A stretch of DNA of 64,000 bases from contig NZ_JANAVO010000004.1 in the NCBI RefSeq assembly GCF_024213555.1, positions 1 through 64,000 on the forward strand, given 5' to 3'. Below, piece after piece: positions 34,050 through 59,800 of this stretch. Under the pieces are notes generated by a model. It worked only from the letters and a program-made list of their open reading frames with translations. It did no database searches and was not told the origin of the DNA. This DNA is from Allokutzneria sp. A3M-2-11 16 (lineage in GTDB: Bacteria > Actinomycetota > Actinomycetes > Mycobacteriales > Pseudonocardiaceae). Positions within the stretch are counted from its first letter, which is position 1, and each line of letters begins with the position of its first letter. The position numbers and the translations under genes are program-made.

Positions 34050-35060
34050 TCAGTCGGACGCTGGCGACGAACCCGAGGCGACCAGCAGTCGCGGCGCCCC
34101 GGAACCGTCCGCGGGCACGGCCCAGACATCGCTGCCGCCGCGCTCGTTCGGCAGTGAGTAGGCCAGCGTGCGCGGGTCGAGCCACACGGCCTGGTCGTCC
34201 ACGCTCCGCGTCTCGGCCAGCGGGGTCTCGGTCATCGTGGCGAGGTCGAGCACGTGCTCCCGCCAGGGCCGCGCGTTGTCGGTGGAGACCCGTTTCTTGA
34301 ACGCCAGCCGGGTGCCGTCCGGCGACAGCGACGGGCATTCCGCGTTCTCCCGCACCGTTTTCGCTTCCCAGGCGTCGTAGTCGGCGACGACGAGATGAGT
34401 GCGTCCGCCGGTCGCCACGGTGGCGTAGAAGCGCTTGTTGTCCCGCGTGAAAGTGACGCCCCAGTAGTTGACGTCCTCCGCGTGGTGCCGCTCCCCCGCG
34501 ACGAGCAGCGGGATGCCCTCGATGTTGGAGTAGAGCTGGTCCTGATCGCGGTCCATGATCCCGGTGCGCGTGGAGAACGTGCCGCTCTGCGAGTAGGAGT
34601 CACCGGTGACGAAGGTGGTCCACGCCCCCATCTTCCCGTCCGGGGAAAGCTTGGCGCGATTGGGAATGCCCGCGAGCTCCACCCGTTTGACCTCGCGCAG
34701 CTCCTTGTCGACGAACACCGCGACGGCGCTGGGCAGCGGCCCCGGGGCGGTGGCCAGGCACAGACCGGTCCCGGCGCTGAGGTAGAAGCGGTCGCAGCTC
34801 AGCCCGCTGATCCGGCGCGGACCGGCTGGGTCGGCCAGCGAGACCGACGCGACCTTGCCGTGGTCCGGGCCGGGCGCGGTGTTGCGGAAGACCAGGCGCC
34901 CCGGCTCGTCCAGCCGCACCCCGCCGGAACGGTCGACGAGCACGGACGCGTCCGCCTGCTGCCGGTCCGGCCGCTCCGCCATGGCCCGCACCGTGTGCGT
35001 GATCGCCGCGCCCGCCAGCACCAGGGTCGTCAGCAACGCCAGCAGAACCTTCTTCGTCAC
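34050..35060 (-). CDS. TolB-like beta-propeller extracytoplasmic protein
   Basis: 336 residues from the GTG at 35060, whose last bases overlap the MFS stop (GTGA). An N-terminal hydrophobic helix (VLLALLTTLVLAGAAITHTV) anchors or exports it. The rest shows propeller blades: AKLSPDGKMGAWTTF, WGVTFTRDNKRFYATVA, PSLSPDGTRLAFKKR and YSLPNERGGSDVWAVPADG, with SPDG repeats as in TolB/WD40-like proteins. The function is unknown; I infer a periplasm-facing partner of the transporter and phosphoesterase encoded upstream in the same operon. Confidence 0.82.
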   Translation of the reverse strand: MTKKVLLALLTTLVLAGAAITHTVRAMAERPDRQQADASVLVDRSGGVRLDEPGRLVFRNTAPGPDHGKVASVSLADPAGPRRISGLSCDRFYLSAGTGLCLATAPGPLPSAVAVFVDKELREVKRVELAGIPNRAKLSPDGKMGAWTTFVTGDSYSQSGTFSTRTGIMDRDQDQLYSNIEGIPLLVAGERHHAEDVNYWGVTFTRDNKRFYATVATGGRTHLVVADYDAWEAKTVRENAECPSLSPDGTRLAFKKRVSTDNARPWREHVLDLATMTETPLAETRSVDDQAVWLDPRTLAYSLPNERGGSDVWAVPADGSGAPRLLVASGSSPASD

Positions 35061-36283
35061 CGCGAAATCCTTCCGAACAACCCGGCGGCGAGGGTGGCCG
35101 CCGCCAGCGCGACCAGGGCGAGGGTGACCGCGGTTCCCATGCCCCACAACGTCCACGCCGCGCCGAAGAGCACCGAGGAGAACAACTTCGCCAGCGCCTG
35201 GCCGGTTTGCAGCAGCGCCATCCCGCTCGTCTTGAGCTCGGCGGGCAGCAGCGGTCCTGCCGCCGCCATCAGCACGCCGTCCGTGCAGGCGTAGAAGATC
35301 CCGTGCGCCGCCAGGCTCGTGACGAGCAGCAGCACGCCGTCCGCGGCGCCGACCAGCAACACGTAGGCCACGAGCAGCGACGCGTGCCCGGCCAGGAACA
35401 CCCGCCACCGCCCGAAGCGGTCCGCCAGCCGCCCCATCGGCACCGCCAGGAGCAGGTAGACCCCGGCGGTGCCGAGCGGAAGGATCGCGAAGTACTCCGG
35501 CGCGATGTCCAATCGCCTCTGCAGCAACAGGTACACGAACGCGTCGCCGACGGTGACCAGGCCGAGCAGGACGGCCCACCCGCAGATCCGCCGGAACCCC
35601 TTGTCCCGCAACAAACCGAAGGCGGAGCGCAGCGACACCGCCTTGCTCGGCGGCATCGGCCCGCGCTGGTCGGTGACGAACAACCCGAGCAGCACCACGC
35701 CGAGCACCGCGAAGCAGGAGCTCACGAAGAACACGGTGTCGTAGCCGCCCGCGACCATCCACAGCAACAGGAACGCCGCGAGCGGGCCGAGGAACGCGCC
35801 GACCGTGTCCATCGCCCGGTGCACGCCGAAGGCCCGGCCGAGCGTGTCCGGGTTGCTGCTCAAGGAGATCAGCGCGTCCCTCGGCGCGGTCCGCAACCCC
35901 TTCCCGGTCCGGTCGGCGGCCAGCACGAGCCCGAGCGCGGTGGCCGAGCCCGCCGCCGCGACCAGCCCGAGCTTGGCCGCCGCCGAGATCCCGTAGCCGA
36001 CACCGGCGACGAGCTTGCGCCGCTGCCCGCGGTCGGCGAGGTTGCCGCCGAAGACCCGGACGAGCGCCGTCACCCCGGAGTACAGCCCGTCGAGGACACC
36101 GAACTGGAGCGGCGAGAAACCCAGGCCCAGCACCAAGTAGAGCGGCAGGACCGCGGTCACCATCTCCGAGGAGATGTCGGTGACCAGGCTGACCGCGCCC
36201 AGCGCGAGGACGTTTCCCGCGACCCGGCCCTGTCTCTTCCCGTCCACTTCGGACGGACCGGAGCGCGCCGATGCGATGTACAT
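35057..36283 (-). CDS. MFS transporter
   Basis: 408 residues from the ATG at 36283 with GAGGGAGG upstream. About twelve hydrophobic segments are visible, with the MFS motif A region GGNLADRGQRRKLVAG between helices 2 and 3 and its second-half copy GRLADRFGRWRVFLAG. RTGKGLRTAPRDALISLSS is typical of a family of bacterial MFS exporters annotated as multidrug or metabolite transporters. It is the middle gene of a three-gene operon: 36 bp after the phosphoesterase and overlapping the beta-propeller gene by 4 nt. The substrate is unknown. Confidence 0.9.
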   Translation of the reverse strand: MYIASARSGPSEVDGKRQGRVAGNVLALGAVSLVTDISSEMVTAVLPLYLVLGLGFSPLQFGVLDGLYSGVTALVRVFGGNLADRGQRRKLVAGVGYGISAAAKLGLVAAAGSATALGLVLAADRTGKGLRTAPRDALISLSSNPDTLGRAFGVHRAMDTVGAFLGPLAAFLLLWMVAGGYDTVFFVSSCFAVLGVVLLGLFVTDQRGPMPPSKAVSLRSAFGLLRDKGFRRICGWAVLLGLVTVGDAFVYLLLQRRLDIAPEYFAILPLGTAGVYLLLAVPMGRLADRFGRWRVFLAGHASLLVAYVLLVGAADGVLLLVTSLAAHGIFYACTDGVLMAAAGPLLPAELKTSGMALLQTGQALAKLFSSVLFGAAWTLWGMGTAVTLALVALAAATLAAGLFGRISR

Positions 36284-43896: not shown

Positions 43897-44361
43897 TACG
43901 GCATCCACCCCTCGGGGTGCCCCGGGGCACGCTCGGCGAGCGCAGACCCGAAGCCCGCCTGCGTCTCAGCAATGATGCCGACCAGGGCTACTCCTCACCA
44001 ACCCGGACAACCGGCTATTCCGCCGGATGACCTTCTCACGGCGCGCAGCCGCGGTCCGATCGGCGTGGGTCGCGCCGGTCCCAAACTACGCCGAGCCCGC
44101 CCGTCCGCGGAAACGGGCACGTGGCGGCCGGATGCCGGACGGAAGCAGGGAACCGGGACCGCGCGTGGTCGCGTCCCAGGAACGCCACCGACCACACGAA
44201 CGGACCATGGAACAGCGACGATCGCTTTAGGTGATTCCCTGATCGCGGCACGTGACGAGCTACCCAGTAACGAATTGAGGGGTTTCCCCGATGCTCCGCC
44301 ACCTGGGTGAGCGGCAGATTGCCTTCCGCAGCCGGACATCCACTCGAAGGGGGCCGAACAG
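43897..44361. promoter_or_regulatory. 465-bp divergent intergenic region between LAL and LanKC genes
   Basis: It should hold both promoters. I see a patch of lower GC at 44218-44285 (TTTAGGTGATTCCC; AGTAACGAATTGAGGGG), the likely core promoter of LanKC. No perfect dyad long enough to call an operator is visible, and short frames here have no ribosome site. Confidence 0.4.
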
Positions 44362-47028
44362 GTGACCATGATCGTCGCATCCACCGATCAGCCCACCCCT
44401 GGCGCCGCGCGTCCCTCCTTCGTCGCACTGGTCGAGCGGGTCCTCGCCGAGCTCGGGGAGCAGGACCGGGTCGTCCACCTGGGCGAGCAGTGGTGCTCCG
44501 TCACCCCGCCCGAGGTGGGGATCCGCAGGCAGGGCTGGAAGCTCCACCTCTCCGCCACGACCGCGCACGCCGAGCGAGTGCTCGAACGGGCCGTGCGAGT
44601 GCTCGCGGGCTTCCGGATCGCCTTCAAGTTCGCCGCCTCCCGCGCGGTGCTGCGCGACCTCAACGGTCCCCGCTGCACGCGGAGCGGAGCGGGCAAGTTC
44701 ATCACCGTCTACCCGGCCGACGACGCGCAGCTGCGGGTGCTCGCGCTCCGGCTGCACCGCGCGACCGCCGGTCTGTCCGGGCCGCGCATCCTCTCGGACC
44801 GCCCGTACCGCGCGGGGAGCCTGGTGCACTGCCGTTACGGGTGCTTCCTCGCGAACCCCGTGCTGAGCCCGGACGGCGATTACCGCGACATGCTGCTGAC
44901 CCCGGACGGCGGCACGGTCGAGGACCGGCGCGACCCCTGGTTCAGCGCCCCGGCGTGGGCGACGTGGCCGTTCCCGGACTCGCGGAAGAGCACGCGGGGC
45001 ACGGGCTCCGGCGGCGTGCTGCTCGGGGGCCGGTTCCTCGCCGTCGAGGCGATCCGGCACGCGAACAAGGGCGGTGTCTACCGCGCGATGGACACCGAGA
45101 CCGGCGAGACCGTCGTGGTCAAGCAGGCCAGGGCGCACGTGGGCGACGACGGTGCGGGCGGCGACGTCCGGGACATCCAGCGGCACGAGGCCGCGATGCT
45201 GCGCCGGTTCGAACCGCTCGGTGTGACGCCGCGGTTCGTCGCGGAGTTCGCCCAGGACGGCGACGACTTCCTCGCCCAGGAGCTCGTCGAGGGGCAGTCG
45301 CTGCGCCGGTGGCTCGCCTCGGCGGGCACTCCCGGGCTCGGCTGGCCGAAGCTGCTCGCGGTCACGAGGAACCTGATGGCGCTGCTGGCCAAGGTGCACG
45401 CGGACGGGCTGGTGCTCGGCGACCTGACGCCGGGCAACGTCATGGTCCGCCCCGATGGCGGGCTGACCCTGATCGACGTGGAGCTGGCCGCCGAGGAGGG
45501 CGCGACGCTGTCCGCGTCCGGCACGCCGGGCTACGCCCCGTACGAGCAGCTGGCGGGCTCGCCGAGGACGGCGGCGGCCGACCGGTACGCGCTCGGGGCC
45601 GTGCTGGTGTTCCTGGCGACCGGGGCCGAGATCGTCCACAGTGGACAGATGGCGGAGCGGATGCTCCAGCGGAAGCGGTGGCTGGACCTCGTCTGCGCGG
45701 AGCACTCGGTGCTCGGCAGGCTCCGCCCGCTGGTCGACGGGCTCCAGGACGCGGACCCGGACCGGCGGTGGACGCTGGACCGGGCGGCGCAGTACCTCGA
45801 CGCGGTGTCCGTGCGCGGGATCGTCACGCCGTGCGCCCCGCACGAGGACGGCGTCCCGGACGCGGACACCTTGATCACCGACGGCGTCGAGCACCTCGTC
45901 GCCGCGATGCGGCCGGGAGCGAAGACCCTCTGGCCGGTCGTGGACCCGCGCCAGGACGCGTGCTCCGCGTGGCCGGGGGCGGCGGGCGGGCTCACCACGG
46001 TGCTCGCCGCGGCCGAGGCGACCGGGGACGTGCGGTACCGCGGCGCTCTCCGCGCGGGTGCGGACTGGCTGCTCAGGCGGATGCGCGCGGAGGCGGTGCT
46101 CACGCCGGGCCTGCTGCACGGGCGGGCCGGGACGCTCCTGGTGCTGCACCGCGCCGGTCAGGTGCTCGGCGACTCGGCCCTGGCCGACGAGGCCCTGGGG
46201 TGGGCGCACCGGCTGCCCGCGCGCTGGCCGAACCTCGACCTCGCCAGCGGGACCGCCGGGGCCGGGCTGGCGATGTGCGCGCTCACGGTGGCCTCCGGCG
46301 ACCCCGGCCTGCTCGGGCGGATCGAGGCGATCGCCGAGCACCTCGCGCACGAGGCACGTCTGGACGACCGCGGCCTGACCTGGGCGTCCTCGCGGTCACA
46401 GGGCGGTGCCGCCTACGGGCTCGCGCACGGCACCGCGGGCATCGCGACCTTCCTGCTCTCCGCCGCCGCGACGCTGGGCCGCGGCGACCTGGTGGAGCTG
46501 GCCGGGCTCGCCGGGCGCACCATGGCGGGCGCCGCGGTGCAGGACGGCTCCGGGATGCGCTGGCCGGGCCCGACCGGTCAGGCGGGCGACACCTGGACCG
46601 CGGGCACGGCCGGGATCGGCTCGTTCCTGGTCCGGTTGTGGCGCGCGACCGGCGAGCGCACCTGGCTCGAACTGGCGGAACGGGCGGCCCTGTCGGTGTG
46701 GCAGCGGCGCTGGGTGCCCGACCCGTCCTCCGCGCACGGGCTCGCGGGCCGGGGCGAGTTCCTGCTGGACCTGCACAGGGCCACCGGCGAGCAGCGATAT
46801 CGATTGTGGGCGGAGCGCCTCGGCCGGATCATCGGAGGGCACGCGTACCGGCACGACGGCCGGTGGCTCGTGCCTGGTGCGGGCTGGCGGCGCGACGACC
46901 TCTCGCACGGCACCGGGATGGCCGGGAGCCTCGGCTTCCTGGTGCGGCTTCGGCACGGAGTCGGCGCCCCGTGGCTGCCACCGGGCGGGCGTCCGCTCAC
47001 CGCGGGCGCGCGCGCCAGCCTCGTCTGA
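44362..47028 (+). CDS. Class III lanthipeptide synthetase homologue (LanKC): lyase, kinase and LanC-like cyclase domains
   Basis: 888 residues from the GTG at 44362 (GGGGG 8 bases upstream; ATG at 44368 is the alternative). The N-terminal phosphoSer/Thr lyase domain has SGAGKFITVYP and GPRILSDRPYRAGSLVHCRYG. The kinase domain (about 230-490) has a loop NKGGVYRAMDTETGETVVVK, the catalytic LGDLTPGNVM and the metal-binding LIDVELA. The C-terminal LanC-like alpha-toroid (about 515-870) shows GLLHGRAGTLLVLHRAG, LASGTAGAGLAMCAL, YGLAHGTAGIATFLLS and LSHGTGMAGSLGFLV. The Cys/Cys-His zinc ligands (CHG motif) of classes I, II and IV are absent, which places it with class III. It should phosphorylate Ser/Thr, eliminate phosphate and possibly cyclise. 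The likely substrate is encoded 51 bp downstream. Confidence 0.88.
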   Translation: MTMIVASTDQPTPGAARPSFVALVERVLAELGEQDRVVHLGEQWCSVTPPEVGIRRQGWKLHLSATTAHAERVLERAVRVLAGFRIAFKFAASRAVLRDLNGPRCTRSGAGKFITVYPADDAQLRVLALRLHRATAGLSGPRILSDRPYRAGSLVHCRYGCFLANPVLSPDGDYRDMLLTPDGGTVEDRRDPWFSAPAWATWPFPDSRKSTRGTGSGGVLLGGRFLAVEAIRHANKGGVYRAMDTETGETVVVKQARAHVGDDGAGGDVRDIQRHEAAMLRRFEPLGVTPRFVAEFAQDGDDFLAQELVEGQSLRRWLASAGTPGLGWPKLLAVTRNLMALLAKVHADGLVLGDLTPGNVMVRPDGGLTLIDVELAAEEGATLSASGTPGYAPYEQLAGSPRTAAADRYALGAVLVFLATGAEIVHSGQMAERMLQRKRWLDLVCAEHSVLGRLRPLVDGLQDADPDRRWTLDRAAQYLDAVSVRGIVTPCAPHEDGVPDADTLITDGVEHLVAAMRPGAKTLWPVVDPRQDACSAWPGAAGGLTTVLAAAEATGDVRYRGALRAGADWLLRRMRAEAVLTPGLLHGRAGTLLVLHRAGQVLGDSALADEALGWAHRLPARWPNLDLASGTAGAGLAMCALTVASGDPGLLGRIEAIAEHLAHEARLDDRGLTWASSRSQGGAAYGLAHGTAGIATFLLSAAATLGRGDLVELAGLAGRTMAGAAVQDGSGMRWPGPTGQAGDTWTAGTAGIGSFLVRLWRATGERTWLELAERAALSVWQRRWVPDPSSAHGLAGRGEFLLDLHRATGEQRYRLWAERLGRIIGGHAYRHDGRWLVPGAGWRRDDLSHGTGMAGSLGFLVRLRHGVGAPWLPPGGRPLTAGARASLV

Positions 47029-47033
47029 CCAAT

Positions 47034-47063
47034 TTCCACGAACACCGCTTCCACGAACACCGC
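47034..47063 (+). repeat. Perfect 15-bp tandem duplication in the LanKC-precursor gap
   Basis: TTCCACGAACACCGC occurs twice back to back (47034-47048 and 47049-47063) just upstream of the precursor ribosome site AGAAGGAG (47065-47072). It may be a recent duplication or a spacing element. Confidence 0.85.
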
Positions 47064-47079
47064 AAGAAGGAGAACCTCC

Positions 47080-47310
47080 ATGGAACCGAACACCGACATC
47101 GACCGCCTCCAGGAACTTCCGGAGACCGAGCCCGAGCCGGGAACCACGACCGGTCCCGGCGACCCCGGCGTCGTGCGCCCCTACACCTCGCAGACGCTGC
47201 ACATCGGCGCCCCGGAGCCCGAGCAGGAGCCCGACCTGGACGAGGAGTTCATCGCCGAGTTCGGCGACGGCGAGGCCGCCCCGGAGGCGGACAAGACCGC
47301 CAAGGCCTGA
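47080..47310 (+). CDS. Candidate cysteine-free RiPP precursor peptide
   Basis: 76 residues; ATG at 47080 with AGAAGGAG 7 bases upstream, cotranscribed with LanKC (51-bp gap). The N-terminus DIDRLQELPE (residues 6-15) matches the pattern of class III leaders, in which a hydrophobic-x-x-LQ-x-L helix is bound by LanKC. The peptide is strongly acidic (about 20 Asp/Glu against 4 Arg/Lys). Its only dense Ser/Thr patches are TTT (22-24) and YTSQTLHIG (35-43), with single Thr at 5, 16 and 73. There is no cysteine, so lanthionine or labionin is impossible. Dehydrated residues, or addition of His41 or Lys72/75 to a dehydro residue, remain possible. An accessory or regulatory protein is the alternative. 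Confidence 0.68.
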   Translation: MEPNTDIDRLQELPETEPEPGTTTGPGDPGVVRPYTSQTLHIGAPEPEQEPDLDEEFIAEFGDGEAAPEADKTAKA

Positions 47311-47648: not shown

Positions 47649-49016
47649 TCAGGAGAGGTCGGCCAGCGCGGAGGAGATGGCGCGGTGGAAGGTCGGGTAG
47701 GCGTAGATCATCGACTTCAGCCGGGCGATGGGGACCTCGCCGTGCACCGCGACGGCCAGGGCGCCGAGGATCTCGCCGCCCGCCGGGCCCATCGCGGTGG
47801 CGCCGACGAGGACACCGCGATCGGCGTCCTCGACGACCTTGATCAGGCCCTCGTTGCCCGCGCCGTGGATCCAGCCGCGCGAAGAGGCCGCCAGGTCGGT
47901 GCTGCCTGTGCGGACGGAGATCCCCCACTCGCGGGCCTGCCCCTCGGTGAGGCCGACCGCGCCGACTTCGGGATCGGTGAAGGTCACCCTCGGCATCGCG
48001 CGGTAGTCGGCGGGCGGGCCGTCGCGGCCGAGGATGTCGGCGATCGCGACGTCCGCCTGGTACATCGAGGTGTGCGTGAAGGCGCCCTTGCCGGTGATGT
48101 CGCCGACCGCCCAGACGCCGTCGGTGACCCGCAGCCGCTCGTCGACCTCGAGGAACCGGGCCTGCTCGTCGACGCCGATCGCGCCGACGCCGAGCTTGGC
48201 CAGCTCGGTCCGCCTGCCGGTCGCCACGAGCAGCTTCTCCGCGGTGACGGCGGTGCCGCCCAGGTCAAGGCTGAAGCCGTCCGAGGAGTGCGAGACCCCG
48301 GCGACCTTGGCGCCCGTGTGCACGGTGACGCCCTCGGACTCAAGGACCTTCGCCAGCAGTTCGCCCGCCTCGGGTTCCTCGAGGGCCAGCAGCCTCGGCT
48401 GGGCCTCGACCACCGTGACCGCCACACCGAAGCGGGCGAAGACCTGGGCGAACTCCACGCCGATGGCGCCGCCGCCGAGGACGGCCAGCGAACGCGGCAG
48501 CTCTTCGAGCCGGACCGCGTCGCGGTTGGTCCAGTACGGGGTCTCGGCCAGTCCGGGGATCGGCGGGACGGCGGGCTCGGTGCCCGCGTTGATCACGATG
48601 GCCCTGCTCGCGGTCAGCCGGTGCTCGGTGCCGTCGTCGTCGGTCACCAGCACCTCGTTCCTGCCGGTCAGGGTCGCCGCGCCGCGCAGGAACCGGCCGC
48701 CCGTCGCGGTGAAGCGGTCCACGGCGACCTTGTCGTCCCAGTTGTCCGTCGCCTGCTCGCGGATGCGCTGGGCCACGACGGACCAGTCGCCACGCACGGT
48801 GCTCGACCCCGCGAGCTGGGGTACCCGGCCACCCTCGGCGAGCAGGCCCGCGGCGCGGACCATCATCTTCGTCGGCACGCAGCCGTAGTAGGGGCACTCA
48901 CCGCCGACCAGGCGCCGGTCCACGCCGACGACGCTCAGCCCGGCCCCGGCCAGGCTGCTCGCGACGTGCTCCCCGCCGGGTCCCATCCCGATCACCACGA
49001 CGTCGGCCTGTCCCAT
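47649..49016 (-). CDS. Pyridine nucleotide-disulfide oxidoreductase (dihydrolipoamide dehydrogenase/MerA-like family)
   Basis: 455 residues from the ATG at 49016, with GAGGAGG 6 bases upstream. FAD motif ADVVVIGMGPGGEHVASSLAG, redox-active disulfide GGECPYYGCVPTK, NAD(P) motif LAVLGGGAIGVEFAQVFARFG and second FAD motif GVWAVGDITGKGAFTH, then a dimerisation domain. The C-terminal His-x-His-Pro-Thr of true lipoamide dehydrogenases, whose His is the catalytic base, is changed to YAYPTFHRAI, so the base is missing. It is probably not a lipoamide dehydrogenase of a 2-oxo-acid complex but a related NAD(P)H-dependent disulfide or quinone reductase. It lies between the LanKC and PKS loci on the opposite strand. 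Its leader contains a 15-bp perfect inverted repeat. Confidence 0.9.
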   Translation of the reverse strand: MGQADVVVIGMGPGGEHVASSLAGAGLSVVGVDRRLVGGECPYYGCVPTKMMVRAAGLLAEGGRVPQLAGSSTVRGDWSVVAQRIREQATDNWDDKVAVDRFTATGGRFLRGAATLTGRNEVLVTDDDGTEHRLTASRAIVINAGTEPAVPPIPGLAETPYWTNRDAVRLEELPRSLAVLGGGAIGVEFAQVFARFGVAVTVVEAQPRLLALEEPEAGELLAKVLESEGVTVHTGAKVAGVSHSSDGFSLDLGGTAVTAEKLLVATGRRTELAKLGVGAIGVDEQARFLEVDERLRVTDGVWAVGDITGKGAFTHTSMYQADVAIADILGRDGPPADYRAMPRVTFTDPEVGAVGLTEGQAREWGISVRTGSTDLAASSRGWIHGAGNEGLIKVVEDADRGVLVGATAMGPAGGEILGALAVAVHGEVPIARLKSMIYAYPTFHRAISSALADLS

Positions 49017-49075
49017 CCGCGCCTCCTCATCAGCGTGCTGCCCCGTGTCCTGCCTCCACTTTCCCGCTTCCCGCA

Positions 49076-49138
49076 GGCGCGCCGCCAGCGCCTCCCACCA
49101 CGCTAAGCCCGGTCCGGCGTTCCCGCTGGCGGCGCGCC
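49076..49138 (-). promoter_or_regulatory. 15-bp perfect inverted repeat in the oxidoreductase 5' leader
   Basis: GGCGCGCCGCCAGCG at 49076-49090 and its exact complement at 49124-49138, with 33 nt between, 60 bp upstream of the oxidoreductase ATG. In RNA it would be a very stable stem, possibly an attenuator. Confidence 0.55.
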
Positions 49139-49585
49139 GCCGTCGTTGCCCACAGTGTCCGGATGCGACCCCCAAAGACGTGTGGTAATTGCCGTGAGCG
49201 CAATGCGGGAACCCTGATGCGAAGTCGGCAAATAGCAAATAGAACCGCTCGATAAATGCTGGGTATCGCGTAGATGACCAGCGTGAATTTACGGTTACAG
49301 CAAATAGCAAGGTCCACCGTGCGAGTGAACGCGGCACGGGGACCACTCCCGCCGGTGATCACCTAGCGTGAGCGGGAGCCCTTGAGAGTGGTCACGGTCA
49401 CATCTCGTTCGTGGCCCCGGGCTAACACCCCACGCGTCTCTCAACGACGAGGAAACTGAGGAGTGCGGCCTCCGGGCGGCCCCCGCCGCGGGCCGTAGGT
49501 GTGAAAACCCCCGGTTGAGGGAATCAGAGTGGTTCGGGAGCGGCCGAAGTTAGGAACGACGGCCGCCGCCAGTCGGCTGGGACCG

Positions 49586-49635
49586 CTTGAGTCCCGCTTG
49601 AGGATCGCTCAAATCGAGCTTGAGGTGACCTCAAG
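49586..49635 (+). promoter_or_regulatory. Candidate SARP-type operator: five half-sites phased at 11 bp
   Basis: Half-sites begin at 49587 (TTGAGTC), 49598 (TTGAGGA), 49609 (TCAAATC), 49620 (TTGAGGT) and 49631 (TCAAGAT), exactly 11 bp apart. The last two form the perfect dyad CTTGAGGTGACCTCAAG (49619-49635). SARP/AfsR proteins are known to bind TCGAG-like direct repeats with 11-bp phasing just upstream of the -10 box. It lies 125 bp before the PKS start codon. Confidence 0.55.
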
Positions 49636-49759
49636 ATGCTGTAGTGCCCGTTGCACCAATTCGTTTTTCCCAGATAGCTTCCCGCTTCGATTCAGCCATT
49701 CGGGTTGGACCTCGCATGTCCAGCCGGACTACCGGGTTGTGTTGATCGACGGAGGCTCA

Positions 49760-52700
49760 ATGGCCGCGGAAACGCCTGAGCGCGAGCTGATCATCGGGGT
49801 GACGCCCTTCGGTGAACCGAACGCTCGCCTCGTGGCCGCGCTCTGCCGCGCGGGTGCGCTCGGTGTTCTCGACCTCGGACGTGGTGACCGGCACGCGCGG
49901 CACGCGCTCGACCTGGCGGCCCGCTGGACACCGGGTACGTTCGGAGTCCGCGTCGCCCCCGGCTGCGCCCTGCGCCCGGAAGACCTCCCCCTCGACCGCG
50001 TCGACACCGTCGTCCTCGCCGACGGCGCGCCCTGGACCGCCGCCGAGGCCGGTCCGCGCGTGCTGGTCGAGGTCACCTCGCCGGAGCAGGCCCGCGCCGC
50101 CGTCGCGGCGGGTGCGCACGGCCTGATCGCCCGCGGCCACGAGGCCGGTGGCAAGGTCGGCGAGCTCAGCTCCTTCGTCCTGGTGCAGAAGCTGGTCGCC
50201 GAGTTCGGCCTGCCGGTGTGGGTCAACGGCGGCATCGGGCCGCGCACCGCGACCGCGGCCGTCGTCGGCGGCGCCGCCGGTGTGGTGCTGGACAGCCAGC
50301 TCGCCCTGCTCGCCGAGTCCGACCTCGCCGAAGAGGTCACCGCCGCGCTGAGCACGATGGACGGCTCCGAGACCGTGCTGGTGGGCGGGCACCGCGTGCT
50401 GCTGCGCCGCGGCCCGGGCGCCCCGGCGACCACTGATCTGACCGAGACCGAGGTCATCGCCCGGCTCGGCGCGAAGGACCTGCGCGAGCAGCTGCTGCCG
50501 GTCGGCCAGGACGGCTTCCTGGCGAAGCAGCTCGCCGACCGCTTCGGCTCGGCGACCGCGCTCGTGCGCGGGCTGCGGGCCGAGCTGGTGGAGTCGCTGC
50601 GCTCGAACGCTGGCGCCGACGCGCTGTGCCCGGGTGCTCCGCTGGCCGCCGCGCTCGGCGTCGAGCTGCCGATCGCGCAGGGCCCGATGACCCGCGTCAG
50701 CGACCAGGCCGCCTTCGCCAAGGCCGTCGCCGAGGGCGGCGCGATGCCGTTCCTGGCGCTCGCGCTGGCGGGCAAGGCCCAGACCCGCGCGCTGCTGGAG
50801 GAGACCCGCGACCTGCTGGGCGAGCGCCCGTGGGGCGTCGGCGTCCTCGGGTTCGCGCCGGAGGACGTGCGCGCCGGGCAGCTGGAGGTCATCCAGGAGA
50901 TCAAGCCCGCCTGCGCGATCATCGCGGGTGGCCGCCCGGCGCAGGCCAACGCGCTGGAGGACAACGGCATCGCGGCGCTGCTGCACGTGCCCTCGCCCGG
51001 TCTGCTCAGGCAGTTCCTGGAGGCGGGCGCGCGCCGGTTCATCTTCGAGGGCCAGGAGTGCGGCGGCCACGTCGGCCCGCGCTCCAGCTTCCCGCTGTGG
51101 GAAGCCCAGATCTCCGTGCTGCTGGACTACCTGTCCACCAAGGACGGTCAGGGCATCCAGGTCCTGTTCGCCGGTGGGGTGCACGACGAGCGCTCCGCCG
51201 CGATGGTCACCGCGATGGCCGCCCCGCTGACCGAGCGCGGTGTCGCGATCGGCGTGCTGATGGGCACCGCCTACCTGTTCACCGAGGAGGCCGTGGCCGC
51301 CGGTGCCGTCCAGCCCGCGTTCCAGCGCCAGGTGATCGCCGCCGAGCGCACCGAGCTGCTGGAGACCGCGCCCGGCCACGCCACCCGCTGCGTCACCTCC
51401 CCGTTCGCCGAGGAGTTCCTGGCGATCAAGGACGAGCTGCGCACCAGCGGCGTCCCGGACCGCGAGGCCTGGGAGAAGCTGGAGCAGCTCAACGTCGGCC
51501 GCCTGCGCATCGCCAGCAAGGGCGTGACCCGCGACGGCGACAAGCTGGTCGAGGTGGCCGAGGCCGGGCAGCTGGCCGACGGGATGTTCATGGCCGGTCA
51601 GGTCGCCGTGCTGCGCTCCGCCGTCACCACCGTCGCCGACCTGCACGCCTCGGTCAGCTCCGACGCGGCCGCCTACCTGACCACGCGGCTGGACGAGCTG
51701 GCCGGGATCAGCGGGCGCGCGCGCGCCGAGGTGCCCGCCGCCCCGCCGGTGGACGTGGCGATCGTCGGCATGGCGTGCATGTTCCCCGGCGCCGCGGACC
51801 TGCCGACCTACTGGGCCAACGTGGTCGGCGGCCGGGACGCGGTCACCGAGGTGCCGGGCAGCCGCTGGGACCACGAGACCTACTACTCGCCGGACGCGAC
51901 CGGTCGCAGCGCGGGCGAGAAGACCCCGTCGAAGTGGGGCGGCTTCCTGCCGGAGATCCCCTTCGACCCGCTGAGCTACGGCATCCCCCCGGCGTCGCTG
52001 GCCGCGATCGAGCCCGTGCAGCTGCTCGCGCTCGAAGCCGCGCAGCGCTCGCTCGTCGACGCCGGTTACACCGATCGCGCCTTCGACCGGTCGCGGGTCG
52101 GCGTGGTGTTCGGTGCCGAGGCGGGCTCGGACCTGTCCAACGCGTCGTCGCTGCGCGCGGTGCTGCCCGGCTACATCGGTGAGATCCCGGCCGAGCTGGA
52201 CGCGCAGCTGCCGAAGCTGACCGAGGACTCCTTCCCCGGCATGCTGGCCAACGTCATCTCCGGCCGCATCGCCAACCGCCTCGACCTCGGCGGCGCGAAC
52301 TACACCGTCGACGCGGCGTGCGCGTCCTCGCTGGCCGCGCTGGACGTGGCGTGCAAGGAGCTGGTCAGCGGCTCGGCGGACATGATGCTCTGCGGCGGCG
52401 CGGACCTGCACAACGGCATCAACGACTACCTGCTGTTCTCGTCGGTGCACGCGCTCTCGCCCACCGGGCAGTGCCGCACCTTCGACGGCAGCGCGGACGG
52501 CATCGCGCTCGGCGAGGGCGTCGCCTGCGTCGCGCTGAAGCGCCTTGAGGACGCTGAGCGCGACGGCGACCGGGTCTACGGCGTGATCAAGGGCGTCGGC
52601 GCGGCCAGTGACGGCAAGTCGCTCGGCCTCACCGCCCCGCGCCCGGAAGGTCAGCGCAACGCGCTGGAGCGGGCTTACGCCAACGCGCGGATCTCCCCGG

Positions 52701-55700
52701 CCGAGGTCGGCCTGGTCGAGGCGCACGGCACCGGCACCGTCGTCGGTGACCGCACCGAGCTGGGCACGCTGACGAAGATGTTCGTCGAGCACGGCGCGCT
52801 GCCCGGCACGTGCACGGTCGGCTCGGTGAAGTCGCAGATCGGCCACACCAAGTGCGCGGCGGGCCTGGCGGGCCTGATCAAGGCGGCGCTCGCGCTGCAC
52901 ACCGGCATCAAGCCGCCCACGCTGCACGTGTCCGAGCCGAACGCCGCGTGGCAGCCGGACAGCAGCCCGTTCACCTTCACCTCGGCCGCGCTGCCGTGGG
53001 AGGCCGAGCCCGCCGAGCGCGTCGCCGGTGTGAGCGCCTTCGGTTTCGGTGGCACGAACTTCCACGTGGTCCTGCGCGGCTACGACGGCGGTCCTGCTCC
53101 CCGGCACGTCGGCGACCAGTGGCCCGCGGAGCTGTTCACCTTCCGCGGCGCGGACCTCAAGACCGCGGGCAAGCACGTCGAGCAGACCCTGGAACTGTTG
53201 CGCACCAACGACTCCAGCGGTCGGCCGTGGCGGCTGCGGGACATCGCCCGCACCGTGGCGCGTCGCTCGGACGCGCGCACCGAGCCCGTGCAGATCGCCG
53301 TGGTCGCCTCCGACCTGGACGACCTGGCCCAGCTCCTGCGTTCCGCGCTCGCCGGTGAGACGCCGCGTGGCGTGCACCTGGCGTCGGTTTCTCCTGAAGC
53401 GGGCGGCAAGGTCGCGTTCCTGTTCCCGGGCCAGGGCAGCCAGAAGCCGGGCATGCTGGCCGATCTGTTCGTGGCCTTCCCCGAGGTGCACCACCTGCTG
53501 CACGAGGGCCGCAAGTGGGCCTCGACGATCTTCCCGCCCACCGCCTTCGACGAGCAGCGCGCCAAGGAGCAGGACGCGCGGCTGCGCGACACCCGCGTGG
53601 CGCAGCCCGCGCTGGGCATCGCCGGACTGGCCGTGCACCAGCTGCTCAGCCGCCTGGACGTGCGCCCGGACATGGTCGCCGGGCACAGCTACGGCGAGCT
53701 GATCGCGTTGGCGGCGGCGGGTTCCATGGACTCCGCGACGCTGCTGCGGCTGAGCGAGGCGCGTGCCGACTCGATCCTCGGCGCCACCGGGGACGACCCG
53801 GGCGCGATGGCCGCGGTGAAGGCGAGCCGCGAGCGGGTCACCGAGGTGCTCACCGAGGCGGGGCTGGCGGAAGAGGTCGTGGCCGCCAACCACAACTCCC
53901 CCGAGCAGCTGGTGATCTCCGGTCCGACCGCCGCGATCGACGCGGCGGTGGCCGCGCTCAAGGCGGCCAAGCTCAGCCCGAAGAAGCTGAACGTGGCGTG
54001 CGCCTTCCACAGCCCGCTGGTCAGCGGCGCCACCGAGACATTCGGGGCGGTGCTCGCCGACGCCGACGTGCGCGCGCCGGAGCTGCCGGTCTACGCGAAC
54101 CGGACCGCTGCGGTCTACTCGGATGACGTCCGCGCCGAGCTGGCCGCGCAGATCGGCTCGCCGGTGCGGTTCGTCGAGCAGATCGAGGCCATGTACGCCG
54201 ATGGCGCGCGGATCTTCGTGGAAGCCGGTCCCGGCAAGGTGCTCACCAACCTGGTGAAGGCGATCCTGGGCGACCGGCCGCACCTGACCGTTGCCTGCGA
54301 GGGCCGCCCGAGGCACGGGCTGGCCGGACTGCTCAACGCGGTCGCCACGCTCGCGGTGTCCGGGGTCGGCGTGCGCACCGGCTGGCTCTTCGCCGGTCGC
54401 GACGCCAAGGACCTGACCAACGCCAAGCCGCCGAAGCGCGCGGGCTGGACGATCGACGGCCACGTCGTGCGCACCGCCTCCGGCGACTTCCTGCCCAACG
54501 GCCTCGCGCCCGCCCGACGTGTGGAGATCACCACCATGACGACCCCAGGCGGCTCCTCGCAGCCCGGTACCAACCGCGACGCCATGGTCAACCAGTTCCT
54601 CCAGGCCAGCCGCGAGATGGTGCAGGCGCAGCGCGACGTGCTGCTGACCTACCTCGGCTCCGCGCCGGAGGTGCAGTACTCGATCCCGGCCGTCGCCACG
54701 GTCGCGCCCGTTCAGCAGTACGCGGCGCCCGCTCCCGCCGTTGTCGAGGCGGCTCCGGTTTCGGCAGCCCCGGCGGCGCAGTCCACTGTGGACGTTCTGG
54801 GCACGGTGCTGGAGATCATCAGCGAGCGCACCGGCTACCCCCTCGACATGATCGAGCCCGACCTCGACCTCGAAGCCGACCTCTCGATCGACTCCATCAA
54901 GCGCACCGAGATCGCGGGCGAGCTGGCCTCCCGTATCGGCGCGGCGGACACGCAGCTGGCGGACGACCAGTTGGAAGAGCTGGCCAAGGCCCGTACGGCG
55001 CAGGCGATCTCCGACTGGCTGAGCAGCCGGGTCGGGTCGACCGCCCCCGCGCCCGCCGCAGCGGCTCCCGCGCCGGTTCAGTCCACTGTGGACATCCTCG
55101 GCACGGTGCTGGAGATCATCAGCGAGCGCACCGGCTACCCGCTGGACATGATCGAGCCCGACCTCGACCTCGAAGCCGACCTCTCGATCGACTCCATCAA
55201 GCGCACCGAGATCGCCGGGGAACTCGCCTCCCGTATCGGCGCCACCGACGCGCAGCTGGCCGACGAGGAGCTGGAGGAGCTGGCCAAGGCGCGCACCGCG
55301 CAGGCCATCGCGGACTGGCTCGGCGGCCACACCGGTTCCGCGGCTCCGGCTGCGACTTCCGCCAAGGTCGAAGAGCCGGTGAACCCGGGCATCGCGCCGA
55401 AGCGCCTGGTCATGGCGCCCGCCGCGCTGGATGCGGTGGACCTCGGCGCGGCTGGGAAGGCGTTGGGCGGCAAGAACTTCCTGCTCTTCGGCACCGGTCC
55501 GGTCAGCACTGAGGTGGCCGCGCTGCTCGGCGAGCACGGCGCCGCGGTGTCCACTTCGGACACTCCGCGCCCGCTGACCGACGCCGATGGCTCGGTGGAC
55601 GGTGTCCTGCACCTGGACGGGTGGGACGAGGTCGACGAGCCGGTGCTACCGGAGACCTTCCCCTCGTTCAAGTCGGCGCTCACCTCCGGGCTGCGCTGGC

Positions 55701-56875
55701 TGATCTCGGTCAGCCCGACCGGTGGCGGCACCGCCGTCCCCGAGCTGACCCACGGCCGCGCCGCCGGGCTGCGGGGCTTCTTCCGCACCGTGCAGCGCGA
55801 GTACCCGGACACCGTGGCCCGCCTGGTCGAGGTCGACCACACCACCGACGCGGCCGTGGTCGCCAAGCTGGTGCTGGCCGAGCTGCTGTCCACTGAGGAC
55901 GCTCCGGTGGTGCTGGCCACCCCGGACTCGCGGCACGGGCTGGTGATGACCGAGCTGCCGCTGACCCTGGGCAGCACCGGCGCCGGTCCGGCCGGGGACG
56001 GGGCCGCCGAGGCGCAGGCCATCGGGCTGGACCGCGATTCCGTGGTGCTGCTGATCGGCGGGGCGCGCGGGATCACCGCGCAGTTCGCCTCCACGCTGGC
56101 CTCGGCGAGCGGCTGCCGGATCGAGCTGGTCGGGCGCACCGCCGCCGCCACCGAGGACGAGGACCCGAAGACCGCGGCTGCCACCGACAAGACCGCGCTG
56201 CGCAAGGCGTTGATCGAGCTGGGGCACCGCTCCCCCGCCGAGATCGAGAAGCTGAGCAGGAAGATCCTGGCGCAGCGCGAGGTCGCCGCGACCGTGGAGC
56301 AGCTGCGCGAGCTGGGCAGCCAGGTCCGCTACCACAGCCTGGACGTCCGCGACCACGACGCGCTGCGCCAGCTGGTCAAGGAGATCCACACCGAGCACGG
56401 CCGGATCGACGGCGTGGTCTACGCGGCGGGCGTGATCGAGGACAAGCTGTTGGCGGAGAAGGACGTCGAGTCCTTCCGCCGGGTGTTCAACACCAAGGTC
56501 GGCGGCGCCCGCGCGCTGCTCGGCGCGCTGGAGGAACTGCCGACCGGGCCGGGCTTCGTGACCCTGTTCGGCAGCATCGCCGCCGTGCTGGGCAACCGCG
56601 GCCAGTCCGACTACTCCTCGGCCAACGACGCGCTGGAGGCGATCGGCGCCGGGTGGGCGGGCCGCACGGGCAACCGCGCGGTGACCGTCCACTGGGGACC
56701 GTGGGCGCCGAGCGCGCAGCACGGCGGCATGGTGACCGTGGAGCTCCAGCAGGAGTACGCGCGCCGGGGGATCTCACTGATCGACCCGGAGGAGGGCACG
56801 ATGTCGCTCCTGCGCGAGCTGGCCTTCGGCGCACCGGACCTGCGAGCCGTCGTCTACACCGCCTCCGGCTGGTGA
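49760..56875 (+). CDS. Iterative PUFA-synthase-like polyketide/fatty acid synthase: ER-like x2, KS, AT, ACP, ACP, KR
   Basis: 2371 residues from the ATG at 49760 (GGAGG at 49751-49755); the frame is open upstream but non-coding. N-terminus: two nitronate-monooxygenase/PfaD-like units, the first (about 8-220) with GHEAGGKVGELSSF, the second (about 290-610) with the intact GQECGGHVGPRSSF. KS (about 663-1100) with active Cys854 in VDAACASS, then VEAHGTGT and IGHTKCAAG. AT (about 1217-1500) with FLFPGQGSQKPG and AGHSYGELIAL. Two ACPs (about 1675-1760 and 1775-1860), each with LSIDSIKR, the phosphopantetheine serine being the S of DSIK. KR (about 1890-2370) with LIGGARGITAQF and YAAGVIEDKLL. It builds and partly reduces an acyl chain iteratively. 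The enoyl-reductase-like part, separate in PUFA systems, is fused in front. Its partner follows 15 bp later. Confidence 0.92.
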   Translation: MAAETPERELIIGVTPFGEPNARLVAALCRAGALGVLDLGRGDRHARHALDLAARWTPGTFGVRVAPGCALRPEDLPLDRVDTVVLADGAPWTAAEAGPRVLVEVTSPEQARAAVAAGAHGLIARGHEAGGKVGELSSFVLVQKLVAEFGLPVWVNGGIGPRTATAAVVGGAAGVVLDSQLALLAESDLAEEVTAALSTMDGSETVLVGGHRVLLRRGPGAPATTDLTETEVIARLGAKDLREQLLPVGQDGFLAKQLADRFGSATALVRGLRAELVESLRSNAGADALCPGAPLAAALGVELPIAQGPMTRVSDQAAFAKAVAEGGAMPFLALALAGKAQTRALLEETRDLLGERPWGVGVLGFAPEDVRAGQLEVIQEIKPACAIIAGGRPAQANALEDNGIAALLHVPSPGLLRQFLEAGARRFIFEGQECGGHVGPRSSFPLWEAQISVLLDYLSTKDGQGIQVLFAGGVHDERSAAMVTAMAAPLTERGVAIGVLMGTAYLFTEEAVAAGAVQPAFQRQVIAAERTELLETAPGHATRCVTSPFAEEFLAIKDELRTSGVPDREAWEKLEQLNVGRLRIASKGVTRDGDKLVEVAEAGQLADGMFMAGQVAVLRSAVTTVADLHASVSSDAAAYLTTRLDELAGISGRARAEVPAAPPVDVAIVGMACMFPGAADLPTYWANVVGGRDAVTEVPGSRWDHETYYSPDATGRSAGEKTPSKWGGFLPEIPFDPLSYGIPPASLAAIEPVQLLALEAAQRSLVDAGYTDRAFDRSRVGVVFGAEAGSDLSNASSLRAVLPGYIGEIPAELDAQLPKLTEDSFPGMLANVISGRIANRLDLGGANYTVDAACASSLAALDVACKELVSGSADMMLCGGADLHNGINDYLLFSSVHALSPTGQCRTFDGSADGIALGEGVACVALKRLEDAERDGDRVYGVIKGVGAASDGKSLGLTAPRPEGQRNALERAYANARISPAEVGLVEAHGTGTVVGDRTELGTLTKMFVEHGALPGTCTVGSVKSQIGHTKCAAGLAGLIKAALALHTGIKPPTLHVSEPNAAWQPDSSPFTFTSAALPWEAEPAERVAGVSAFGFGGTNFHVVLRGYDGGPAPRHVGDQWPAELFTFRGADLKTAGKHVEQTLELLRTNDSSGRPWRLRDIARTVARRSDARTEPVQIAVVASDLDDLAQLLRSALAGETPRGVHLASVSPEAGGKVAFLFPGQGSQKPGMLADLFVAFPEVHHLLHEGRKWASTIFPPTAFDEQRAKEQDARLRDTRVAQPALGIAGLAVHQLLSRLDVRPDMVAGHSYGELIALAAAGSMDSATLLRLSEARADSILGATGDDPGAMAAVKASRERVTEVLTEAGLAEEVVAANHNSPEQLVISGPTAAIDAAVAALKAAKLSPKKLNVACAFHSPLVSGATETFGAVLADADVRAPELPVYANRTAAVYSDDVRAELAAQIGSPVRFVEQIEAMYADGARIFVEAGPGKVLTNLVKAILGDRPHLTVACEGRPRHGLAGLLNAVATLAVSGVGVRTGWLFAGRDAKDLTNAKPPKRAGWTIDGHVVRTASGDFLPNGLAPARRVEITTMTTPGGSSQPGTNRDAMVNQFLQASREMVQAQRDVLLTYLGSAPEVQYSIPAVATVAPVQQYAAPAPAVVEAAPVSAAPAAQSTVDVLGTVLEIISERTGYPLDMIEPDLDLEADLSIDSIKRTEIAGELASRIGAADTQLADDQLEELAKARTAQAISDWLSSRVGSTAPAPAAAAPAPVQSTVDILGTVLEIISERTGYPLDMIEPDLDLEADLSIDSIKRTEIAGELASRIGATDAQLADEELEELAKARTAQAIADWLGGHTGSAAPAATSAKVEEPVNPGIAPKRLVMAPAALDAVDLGAAGKALGGKNFLLFGTGPVSTEVAALLGEHGAAVSTSDTPRPLTDADGSVDGVLHLDGWDEVDEPVLPETFPSFKSALTSGLRWLISVSPTGGGTAVPELTHGRAAGLRGFFRTVQREYPDTVARLVEVDHTTDAAVVAKLVLAELLSTEDAPVVLATPDSRHGLVMTELPLTLGSTGAGPAGDGAAEAQAIGLDRDSVVLLIGGARGITAQFASTLASASGCRIELVGRTAAATEDEDPKTAAATDKTALRKALIELGHRSPAEIEKLSRKILAQREVAATVEQLRELGSQVRYHSLDVRDHDALRQLVKEIHTEHGRIDGVVYAAGVIEDKLLAEKDVESFRRVFNTKVGGARALLGALEELPTGPGFVTLFGSIAAVLGNRGQSDYSSANDALEAIGAGWAGRTGNRAVTVHWGPWAPSAQHGGMVTVELQQEYARRGISLIDPEEGTMSLLRELAFGAPDLRAVVYTASGW
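54781..55330 (+). repeat. 300-bp in-frame tandem duplication encoding twin ACP domains
   Basis: The two ACP-coding stretches start with GTCCACTGTGGAC at 54781 and 55081, exactly 300 bp apart. They are almost identical through the active-site region (54810-54920 and 55110-55220), including third codon positions. This points to a recent duplication or ongoing gene conversion. The linkers between them diverge. Confidence 0.9.
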
Positions 56876-56890
56876 TGCGGGGTTAACGGC

Positions 56891-59800
56891 ATGCATATCG
56901 CGATCACTGGGATGTCCGTGCTCCTCCCGGGCGCTCCCGACCTGGAAAGCTACTGGCGCAACCTCGTCGACGGGGTCGACGCGATCACCGAGGTGCCCGA
57001 AGGGCGTTGGGACGCGGAGTTCTACAAGCCGTCCTCGGCGACCGGGAAGGCGGAGGCGGACGAGATCTACTGCCGCCGCGGTGGTTTCGTCGACGCCTAC
57101 GCCGAGGTGGACCCGACGCGGTTCGGCATCATGCCCAACTCCGTCGCGGGCACCGAGCCGGACCAGCTGATCGCGTTGCGCGTGGCCGCCGCCGCCATCG
57201 CCGACGCCGGTGGTGACGCGAAACTGCCCGCCAGGGATCGGATCGGCGTGGTGCTCGGCCGCGGCGGTTACCTGACGCCCGGCCTGGTGCGGCTGGAGCA
57301 GCGGGTGCGGACCGCGCACCAGCTCGTGCGCACGCTCGCCGAGCTGATGCCGGACCTGCCCGCCGAGAAGCTGGAGTCGGTGCGCGCCGCGTTCACCGAG
57401 CAGCTCGGCCCGCACCAGCCGGAGTCCGCGATCGGCCTGGTGCCCAACCTCGCCGCCTCGCGCATCGCCAACCGCCTCGACCTGCGCGGCCCGGCGTACA
57501 CAGTGGACGCTGCCTGCGCTTCCTCGCTGATCGCGGTGGACCAGGCGGTCAACGAGCTGGCCGCCGGGCGCTGCGACGTGATGCTCGCGGGCGGTGTGCA
57601 CCACTGCCACGACGTCACGTTCTGGAGCGTCTTCTCCCAGCTGCGCGCGCTGTCGGTGAAGCAGAGCATCCGCCCGTTCAGCAAGGACGCTGACGGCATC
57701 CTGATCGGCGAGGGCACCGGCGTCGTGGTGCTGAAGCGCCTTGAGGACGCCGAGCGCGACGGCGACCGGGTCTACGCGGTCATCCGCGGTACCGGCGTCG
57801 CCAGCGACGGCAAGGCGGCCAGCCTGTTCAACCCGGAGCCGGACGGCCAGGTGCTCGCGCTCCAGCGGGCGTGGTCCGCCGCCGGGCTCGACCCGACCTC
57901 GCCGGACGCCATCGGCATGCTGGAGGCGCACGGCACCGCGACCCCCGCCGGTGACGCCGCCGAGCTGGACACGCTGCGCCGGATCTTCGGTTCTGGTGGG
58001 GATTCCGACGATTTCCCGGTGATCGGTTCGGTCAAGTCCATGATCGGGCACACTATGCCCGCGGCGGGGATCGCCGGTCTGGTCAAGGCCGCGCTCGCGG
58101 TGCACCGGGGCGTGCTGCTGCCGACGCTGCACTGCGAGGAGCCGCACCCCGCGCTCGCCGAGACCCGCTTCCGGCCGATCTCCACCGCGCGCCCGTGGGA
58201 GACCTCCAAGGGGAAGCCGCGCCGCGCCGCCGTGAACGCGTTCGGTTTCGGCGGCATCAACGCCCACGTGGTGCTTGAGCAGGCGTCCGCCGAAGACCCG
58301 CTTGCGGGGTCGAGCATCAGCACTGTGGACGCTCCCGTCGTCGTGTCCGAGCCCGAGCAGGTACTGCGGCTGAGCGCGTCCTCCCCCGCCGAGATGGCGA
58401 AGCTGCTCGAAGCCGATGACGCCGAGCTGCGCGCTATGTCCTTTGTGGACGGTTCGCCGCTGGACACCCGCCTCGGCGTCGTCGGGCCCACCACGCGCAA
58501 GCTGACGCTGGCCCGCAAGGTCGCCGCGAAGGCGGTGTCCTGGCGCGGCCGCAACGACGTCTGGTTCAGCCCCTCGCCGCTGCTGGGCGCGCCGAGCGCG
58601 AAGATCGCGTTCGTCTTCCCCGGCCTCGAAGCCGACTTCGAGCCGCGGATGGACGACGTGGCCGCGCACTTCGGCCTGCCCAAGCGCGACCTGTCCGGTG
58701 ACACCGTTGGCGCGCACGGTGAAGCGGTCTTCAGCATGGGCCGCATGCTCGACACGGTGTTGCGCCGCAGCGGGATCACCCCGGACGGCGTCGCCGGGCA
58801 CAGTGTCGGCGAGTGGTCGGCCATGGTGGCCGCGGGCATCTACTCCGACGCGGAGATCGACAGCTTCCTGCACACCTACGACCCGGACGCGCTCCAGGTA
58901 CCGGGTGTGGCCTTCGCCGCGCTGGGCTGCGGGGTCGACCGGATCGCCGACGCGCTCGCCGCGCGCCCGGAACTCGTGCTCTCCCACGACAACGCGCCCA
59001 ACCAGTGCATGGTGTGCGGGCCCGTCGAGGTGGTCGAGGACCTGGTCCGCGAGATGCGCGGGAAGAACGTCCTCGGCCAGCTGCTGCCGTTCCAGTCCGG
59101 CTTCCACACGCCGATGCTGGGGCCGTTCATGGACCCGATCCACACCGCGGTGAACGAGCTGACGCTGCACCCGGCCACGCTGCCGATCTGGTCGGCGACC
59201 ACCGCTTCCCCTTACCCCACAACGGAAGCCGCGATCCGCGAGCTGTTCGTCCGGCACCTGCTGGAGCCCGTCCGGTTCCGCCAGCTGATCGAGGCGATGT
59301 ACGCCGACGGCTACCGCGTCTTCATCCAGACCGGTACCGGCCAGCTGGCCTCGCTGATCAGCGACACGCTGCGCGGGCAGGAACACCTCGCCGTGGTGGG
59401 CAATGCGGGCAACCGCGCCGGGATGGAGCAGCTGCGCCGCGTCGCCACCTCGCTGTGGGTGGAGGGCGGCACTCCGGCCCAGGACCTGTTCGGGCAGCCC
59501 GCTCCCGTTGCCCCGGCACCGAAGAAGGCGAGCAGGTCGCCGATGCGGCTGGACCTCAACGGCGCTTTGGTGTCGCTCAACGGTTCCGTGCCGCCCATCA
59601 GCAGGCCGACCGTGGACGCGGGCGCGTTGGGCAAGCTGGGCAACCAGTTCCCGCTCGCCGCTCAGCTCGAAGACCTGCTGCGGGAAACCGCGGACACCGC
59701 TGCCGCCGTCATCGGTGCAGCGGGGAGCGCGCCGGTCGCAACGCTTGCCGCGCCGCGCGAGCTGCACGAGAAGCTGGCGGTCAACACCACGGCGATGCCG

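Follow-up and report, generated by a model that had tools for sequence, protein, structure and literature searches.

A class IV lanthipeptide synthetase without its zinc-site cysteines, and a conserved cysteine-free putative precursor beside it, in Allokutzneria

What might a lanthipeptide synthetase make when the precursor peptide beside it holds no cysteine (Cys)? The question is raised by two genes of the soil bacterium Allokutzneria sp. A3M-2-11 16 (assembly GCF_024213555.1), found in a stretch of 64,000 nucleotides, positions 1-64,000 of contig NZ_JANAVO010000004.1, which is called the window here and to which all coordinates refer. The first gene (44362-47028, + strand) encodes a synthetase of 888 amino acids, of the LanL type (class IV) by model score, domains and orthologues, whose cyclase is without its zinc site; the second (47080-47310, + strand) encodes a Cys-free putative precursor of 76 residues. 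Both were compared with their counterparts in two other Allokutzneria genomes, and the three genomes are labelled G000 (that of the window, 8.8 Mb), G001 and G002. Sequence comparison supports the view that a lanthipeptide-type synthetase is truly paired here with a conserved Cys-free precursor. Our answer, to which we give slightly better than an even chance, is that the locus would be a class IV-derived system for a ribosomally synthesised and post-translationally modified peptide (RiPP), in which enzyme and peptide have both lost the features for ring formation and the product would be a linear dehydropeptide.

A domain search found the order RamC_N lyase, Pkinase and LANC_like in the synthetase. 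The protein scored 843.3 bits with the NCBIfam LanL model NF038150 (cut-off 650) and 448.6 bits with the class III LanKC model NF038151, below its cut-off of 575; the orthologues in G001 and G002, 93 and 89% identical to it, scored 863 and 858 bits with the LanL model. The class III hallmark, Phe, Tyr or Met and then Asp in the places of the former second and third zinc ligands, is missing, and A791 and H792 are found instead. By these models the enzyme belongs to class IV LanL and not to class III LanKC, and the class III identity was dropped on the scores. A preliminary description of this DNA had called it a complete LanKC homologue, of which the lyase-kinase-cyclase order stands and the label does not.

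The LanC-like cyclase domain (residues 539-866; 45976-46959, + strand) was delimited by domain search and alignment. Its zinc triad, positions 746, 791 and 792, reads T-A-H, T-A-H and S-A-H in the three Allokutzneria species versus CCH in all 43 other relatives aligned. The earlier statement that the zinc-ligand motifs are lost was nearly right: both zinc Cys are gone and H792 is kept. Thirteen of 63 conserved cyclase columns are altered in all three species, compared with 2 of 84 in the lyase and kinase together (Fisher p 4.6e-4, columns treated as independent). The conserved H629 is replaced by Ser, Thr and Ser, and H689 is kept. The ratio of nonsynonymous to synonymous substitution rates (dN/dS) for the domain is 0.15-0.34 among the three species, and the cyclase fold appears to be retained.

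To place this triad among others, the genome searches scored two enzyme candidates or 14 peptide candidates per genome, so that counts drawn from them are lower bounds. The triad was checked at 51 of 51 non-orthologue places of the first enzyme search, at 16 of 17 of the second (the partial L075 was dropped) and at 28 new loci of the third. Over 98 aligned rows it was CCH in 79, CCC in 12, DFH in two, WFW in one and -AN in one, together with the TAH, TAH and SAH of Allokutzneria. The two DFH synthetases, taken for class III-like (no model score), each have a leader peptide with three Cys upstream. In a tree, the three Allokutzneria enzymes form one clade (100/100) with a long stem (1.13), beside L031 and L032 (90/95). 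Because these nearest neighbours have the CCH triad and Cys-containing precursors, the zinc-site loss is read from the tree as a derived state in the Allokutzneria lineage. As a separate observation, the 12 synthetases with a CCC triad (L095-L105 and L131) comprise 11 in the window's family and one in the family of genome G744, which we take to be Streptomycetaceae. They resemble the L-CCC group of PMC11251773, excerpts of which count 33 L-CCH, 8 L-CCC and 192 L-unknown enzymes of the lyase type, the last equated with type III.

The phospho-Ser/Thr lyase domain (residues 38-209; 44473-44988, + strand) and the Ser/Thr kinase domain (residues 236-476; 45067-45789, + strand) were delimited in the same way. 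In the alignment with the 43 relatives the lyase retains K60, H62, K89, K112 and R158, and the kinase retains K254, D354, N359 and D372; K60, H62, K89 and R158, with the four kinase residues, are presumably the catalytic positions of their families, and all are kept. One of 48 lyase columns conserved in at least 93% of the relatives is altered in all three species, as is one of 36 conserved kinase columns, with one further kinase column altered in two of them. At lyase position 157, Tyr in 91 of the 98 aligned rows is Cys in all three Allokutzneria species. This change within a lyase motif, the acidic peptide and the conserved kinase would suit a phosphopeptide, formed without elimination, as the end product, and a cyclase-site variant of ThurKC is reported in excerpts of PMC10604976 to have left some sites phosphorylated. 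However, 47 of the 48 conserved lyase columns are unchanged, which makes it less likely that the reaction halts at the phosphorylated stage; the five lyase residues named above are intact and the pairwise lyase dN/dS is 0.14-0.17. We regard a phosphopeptide end product as quite improbable.

The peptide, recognised by its open reading frame (ORF), its conservation and its leader homology, starts 51 bp past the synthetase stop, as the preliminary description had it. An AAGGAG ribosome-site-like stretch precedes it, and such a stretch stands before the peptide in all three species. The third-codon GC of the ORF is 0.93, in line with the neighbouring genes. The layout comprises a leader of about residues 1-20 with LQELPET, a YTSxTxxIG patch at 35-43 and an acidic tail at 44-76, and the Cys count is zero in each of the three species. 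The peptide is present in all three Allokutzneria genomes at 100, 89 and 86% identity. Residues 1-20 are invariant; 2 of the 10 residues 21-30, 3 of the 13 residues 31-43 and 10 of the 33 tail residues vary. The invariant Thr and Ser are T5, T16, T22, T24, T36, S37, T39 and T73; Y35 and K75 are also invariant, and in G002 K72 is Glu and H41 is Phe. Among 390 genomes of the family only the three Allokutzneria match the peptide well; there were nine weak matches (E 9e-4 to 9e-3), and one of these outside the genus, L013, had neither leader nor core and was put down to chance.

Both genes are under purifying selection. For the three species pairs dN/dS is 0.155, 0.248 and 0.194 in the synthetase gene and 0.174, 0.284 and 0.205 in the peptide gene; all indels in the peptide are whole codons, and the spacer between the two genes is 51, 35 and 35 bases in the three species. 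In the surrounding region the species share about 85-95% of their aligned DNA. The 76-residue frame, whose conservation had been left as a point on which the preliminary description could fail, is thus kept in all three genomes with selection on its codons. Because its dN/dS is 0.16-0.25 overall and 0.15-0.34 in the cyclase, the synthetase does not look like a pseudogene. The system could still be a relic, decaying after the loss of an original Cys peptide, with the 76-residue ORF not its substrate. Such a history would fit the lost zinc site, the long stem branch and the example of L089, a LanL-like protein from another genus in which lyase, kinase and zinc residues are all changed and which shows that LanLs do decay. 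It is opposed by purifying selection, which acts on the peptide and on each of the three domains, by the intact lyase and kinase motifs, by a leader invariant over 20 residues and by the ribosome-site stretch before all three peptides, and we give it little credence.

The leader provides the link to class IV. With the ALQxL leader model NF038157 (cut-off 19 bits) the peptide scored 16.8 bits on the protein, and 18.7 bits, or 19.3 with neighbours in frame, in a genome search. By this model it was the best match in G000 and G001, and in G002 it was second to the precursor of a second LanL (23.5 bits). When residues 1-20 of the G001 peptide, identical to those of the window's, were compared with the precursors of 12 relatives, a fraction of 0-0.004 of 500 shuffles scored as high; for the cores against the same 12 precursors the fraction was 0.11-0.96, which indicates no similarity. 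Core homology to Cys-containing precursors was not found, though a few share a TSG triplet. A profile built from eight Cys-containing LanL precursors had the Cys-free peptide as its top match in all three genomes, through the leader region only. The leader is therefore of the class IV LQxLPE type and not class III-like as first described, and the peptide has, by sequence, the look of a class IV precursor with a core that was replaced or has diverged beyond recognition.

Could a Cys-containing precursor for this enzyme lie elsewhere, as the preliminary description allowed? A genome-wide search with the leader model found no Cys-containing leader-bearing precursor above the ALQxL cut-off in G000, the window's genome, or in G001. 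The eight-precursor profile has limited reach and its silence proves little, as it missed the known 3-Cys precursor of G002 that the ALQxL model found. Three weaker leader matches in G000 were rejected; they overlap an ABC-transporter-like ORF, an rRNA-methylase-like ORF (these two named by eye) and the window's glycosyltransferase. A near-miss of 17.3 bits in G001, a 90-codon ORF antisense to an ORF of 165 amino acids, was judged to be chance.

The relation of zinc and Cys was also read at other LanL loci. Precursors were sought beside the synthetases of 72 loci within 700 bp, using a loose leader pattern, and every recognisable precursor found in this way (29 of 29) has two to five Cys. G002 provides an internal comparison, as its second LanL has a CCH triad and a 3-Cys precursor about 1.7 kb downstream. 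Among the loci with a recognised precursor, only the Allokutzneria pair has, by sequence, neither the zinc Cys nor a substrate Cys. Three Cys-free ORFs beside L024, L050 and L115 have no leader and were set aside as chance. Two further zinc-less LanL-like proteins, L089 and L090, have no recognisable precursor, and they neither support nor break the link between zinc and Cys. The synthetase at L107 (6765-9284, + strand, in genome G218), a second zinc-less LanL-like one, has the triad WFW and scores 638 bits with the LanL model (cut-off 650); it keeps the lyase and kinase motifs, its neighbours include a cytochrome P450 and two ORFs that match M16 peptidases, and no leader-bearing precursor was found nearby. 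L106 (7067-9562, - strand, in genome G227), a LanL homologue of 665 bits with an open frame of 831 amino acids, has its lyase, kinase and zinc residues all changed and is perhaps a pseudo-enzyme; no recognisable precursor was found at this locus either.

From the leader homology and the conserved motifs, we infer the following course for a linear dehydropeptide. The leader of the 76-residue peptide would be recognised by the lyase-kinase part of LanL; the kinase would phosphorylate Ser and Thr (T36, S37 and T39 are the most likely sites); and the lyase would eliminate the phosphate to give dehydroalanine or dehydrobutyrine (Dha/Dhb). As the peptide lacks Cys and the cyclase lacks its zinc site, the product would stay linear. 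The cyclase domain would survive as a fold, probably because it guides the substrate or takes part in activation between domains, and the active molecule would be the entire acidic peptide or a fragment trimmed from it. A product with dehydro residues only had been one of the options in the preliminary description, and it is the one that the evidence favours.

By analogy, each of these steps appears possible, as each has been described in other enzymes. In ThurKC the positions equivalent to the zinc ligands are S726, F770 and D771; replacement of F770 or D771 gave dehydration without cyclisation, and the lyase-kinase part alone was inactive, according to excerpts of PMC10604976. CcaM, in the available text of PMC10676384, dehydrates without forming rings yet requires its own cyclase domain. 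NorKC acting on a substrate with Cys15 changed to His is reported to give a threefold dehydrated, ring-free product (PMC10206099, in part).

Several points weigh against a linear dehydropeptide. The three Allokutzneria genomes represent a single event, and the loss of zinc and the loss of Cys could be linked by drift alone. The Cys comparison draws on 29 loci, the other 43 of the 72 having no candidate, at least two of them (L031 and the second LanL of G002) since their peptide is 1.6-1.7 kb distant. The Y157C change might weaken elimination. The F770A variant of ThurKC for the most part came to a halt, leaving partial dehydration or mixed phosphorylation (PMC10604976, from the same excerpts), and a loss at the zinc positions can thus harm dehydration too. 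Finally, this long, acidic peptide has few Ser and Thr, and by sequence it is unlike the cores of the relatives' precursors.

A ring of a new type would result if the zinc-free cyclase had been repurposed to join a non-thiol nucleophile (K75, Y35 or another) to a dehydro residue. The purifying selection on the domain, the retention of H689 and H792, the 13 conserved columns altered in all three species and the invariance of K75 and Y35 are all consistent with such a role, and the LanC-like domain of NorKC can use His, as reported in part of PMC10206099. Nevertheless K75 is 36-39 residues away from T36, S37 and T39, and the class III Phe/Tyr/Met-Asp pair is missing. The cross-link through His41 that the preliminary description proposed is unlikely as a conserved trait, given the Phe in G002; a linkage of the histidinobutyrine type calls for a conserved core His and a Cys, and these peptides have neither. 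Its other proposal, a link from the C-terminal lysines, keeps K75 and loses K72, which is Glu in G002; in NorKC, by the same partial source, Lys in place of His gave no cross-link and the Cys-dependent labionin forms first. A repurposed cyclase is unlikely, though somewhat less so than the phosphopeptide. A wider claim is that this lineage, without Cys chemistry on either side, turns a long acidic peptide, which may act inside the cell, into a linear dehydropeptide or a non-thioether ring; this we put forward tentatively, at well short of an even chance.

A Pfam scan of 17 window genes found, adjacent to the pair, a LuxR-type regulator, a BBE oxidase, a NUDIX protein and a flavoprotein reductase, which bears out, for the adjacent genes covered, the claim that no protease or exporter stands next door. 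An MFS transporter (35057-36283) lies 8 kb upstream of the synthetase; S8-peptidase matches comprise a weak one at 31721-33985, 10 kb upstream, and a clear S8 subtilase at 2037-3731. The flavoprotein disulphide reductase (47649-49346) is convergent with the pair, and its best match among the 25 NCBIfam models listed is lipoamide dehydrogenase, with 307 of the 409 bits of the cut-off. Beyond it, two large polyketide genes similar to those of polyunsaturated fatty acid (PUFA) synthases occupy 49529-61321, with 967 bits (cut-off 1010) and 499 bits for the PfaA model; they are followed by an alpha/beta hydrolase (61626-62450) and an EryCIII-like glycosyltransferase and are regarded as a separate biosynthetic locus.

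The reductase bears on one more alternative, in which the dehydro residues react in trans with a thiol (a cofactor thiol such as mycothiol, or a protein Cys) and the peptide is a carrier or an electrophile instead of a ringless end product. Dha and Dhb are electrophilic, eukaryotic LanC proteins are reported in excerpts of PMC11251773 to promote glutathione addition to dehydrated residues, and a pyridine nucleotide-disulphide oxidoreductase is this convergent neighbour. Yet the neighbour falls below every curated cut-off among the models listed, that for mycothione reductase included, the whole region is syntenic anyway, and the thiol-activating zinc is lost. We think a reaction in trans rather improbable.

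Immediately upstream of the synthetase, a three-way alignment revealed a near-invariant block (44267-44361, + strand) with about four variable positions of 95. It contains a possible ORF of 24 codons (44291-44365) whose stop overlaps the lanL start, and it may be a promoter, a leader RNA or a leader ORF; no Rfam match was found for the block. A pattern scan of contigs, which can reach close relatives only, matched 33 stretches; two of them code for a relative, one being the G002 record and the other a distant kinase. In a plasmid collection 150 records matched, every one below 60% identity to the synthetase; six cover most of the query, two annotated lanL and four bare of annotation.

If the wider claim of a lineage without Cys chemistry is true, the locus represents a kind of RiPP that is dropped beforehand by genome-mining rules demanding Cys. 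One large precursor survey, as described in excerpts of PMC7268733, discarded every ORF whose estimated core held no Cys, and because of this Cys-free systems such as this one would be overlooked in a systematic way. No account of a zinc-less LanL with a Cys-free precursor was met in the portions seen of the open-licence literature searched. The locus would be a natural test of the role of the LanC-like domain when ring formation is not required, and of whether dehydration alone yields a useful peptide.

Compared with known systems, the window's enzyme shares with class III ThurKC the three domains and a cyclase minus its zinc site; it differs in scoring below the LanKC cut-off and in having A-H in place of Phe-Asp. 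Known class III precursors carry Cys (PMC10604976 and PMC10206099, in excerpts). The noursin enzyme NorKC, of the LanKC-Hbt type, uses a non-Cys nucleophile as was first proposed for this peptide, but it belongs to class III, acts on a precursor with Cys and forms labionin first, whereas the His of the window's peptide is not conserved. The LanMbC enzymes of the dehydrazoles (CcaM, carnazolamide) are similar in ringless dehydration and in a zinc-free cyclase domain that is kept; unlike the system here, they have a class II dehydratase domain and azole-bearing peptide substrates, and their leader is not needed. The prochlorosin synthetases belong to class II, have a CCC zinc site and act on many substrates, which are reported, in part of PMC11251773, to include Cys-free peptides as in the present case. 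From class IV LanL enzymes such as VenL the window's system differs in being without both zinc Cys and without a core Cys, in a longer and acidic core, and in that no transporter was recognised in the adjacent genes scanned; it is like them in domain order, in its LanL score, in a precursor just downstream and in a leader of the LQxLPE/ALQxL type.

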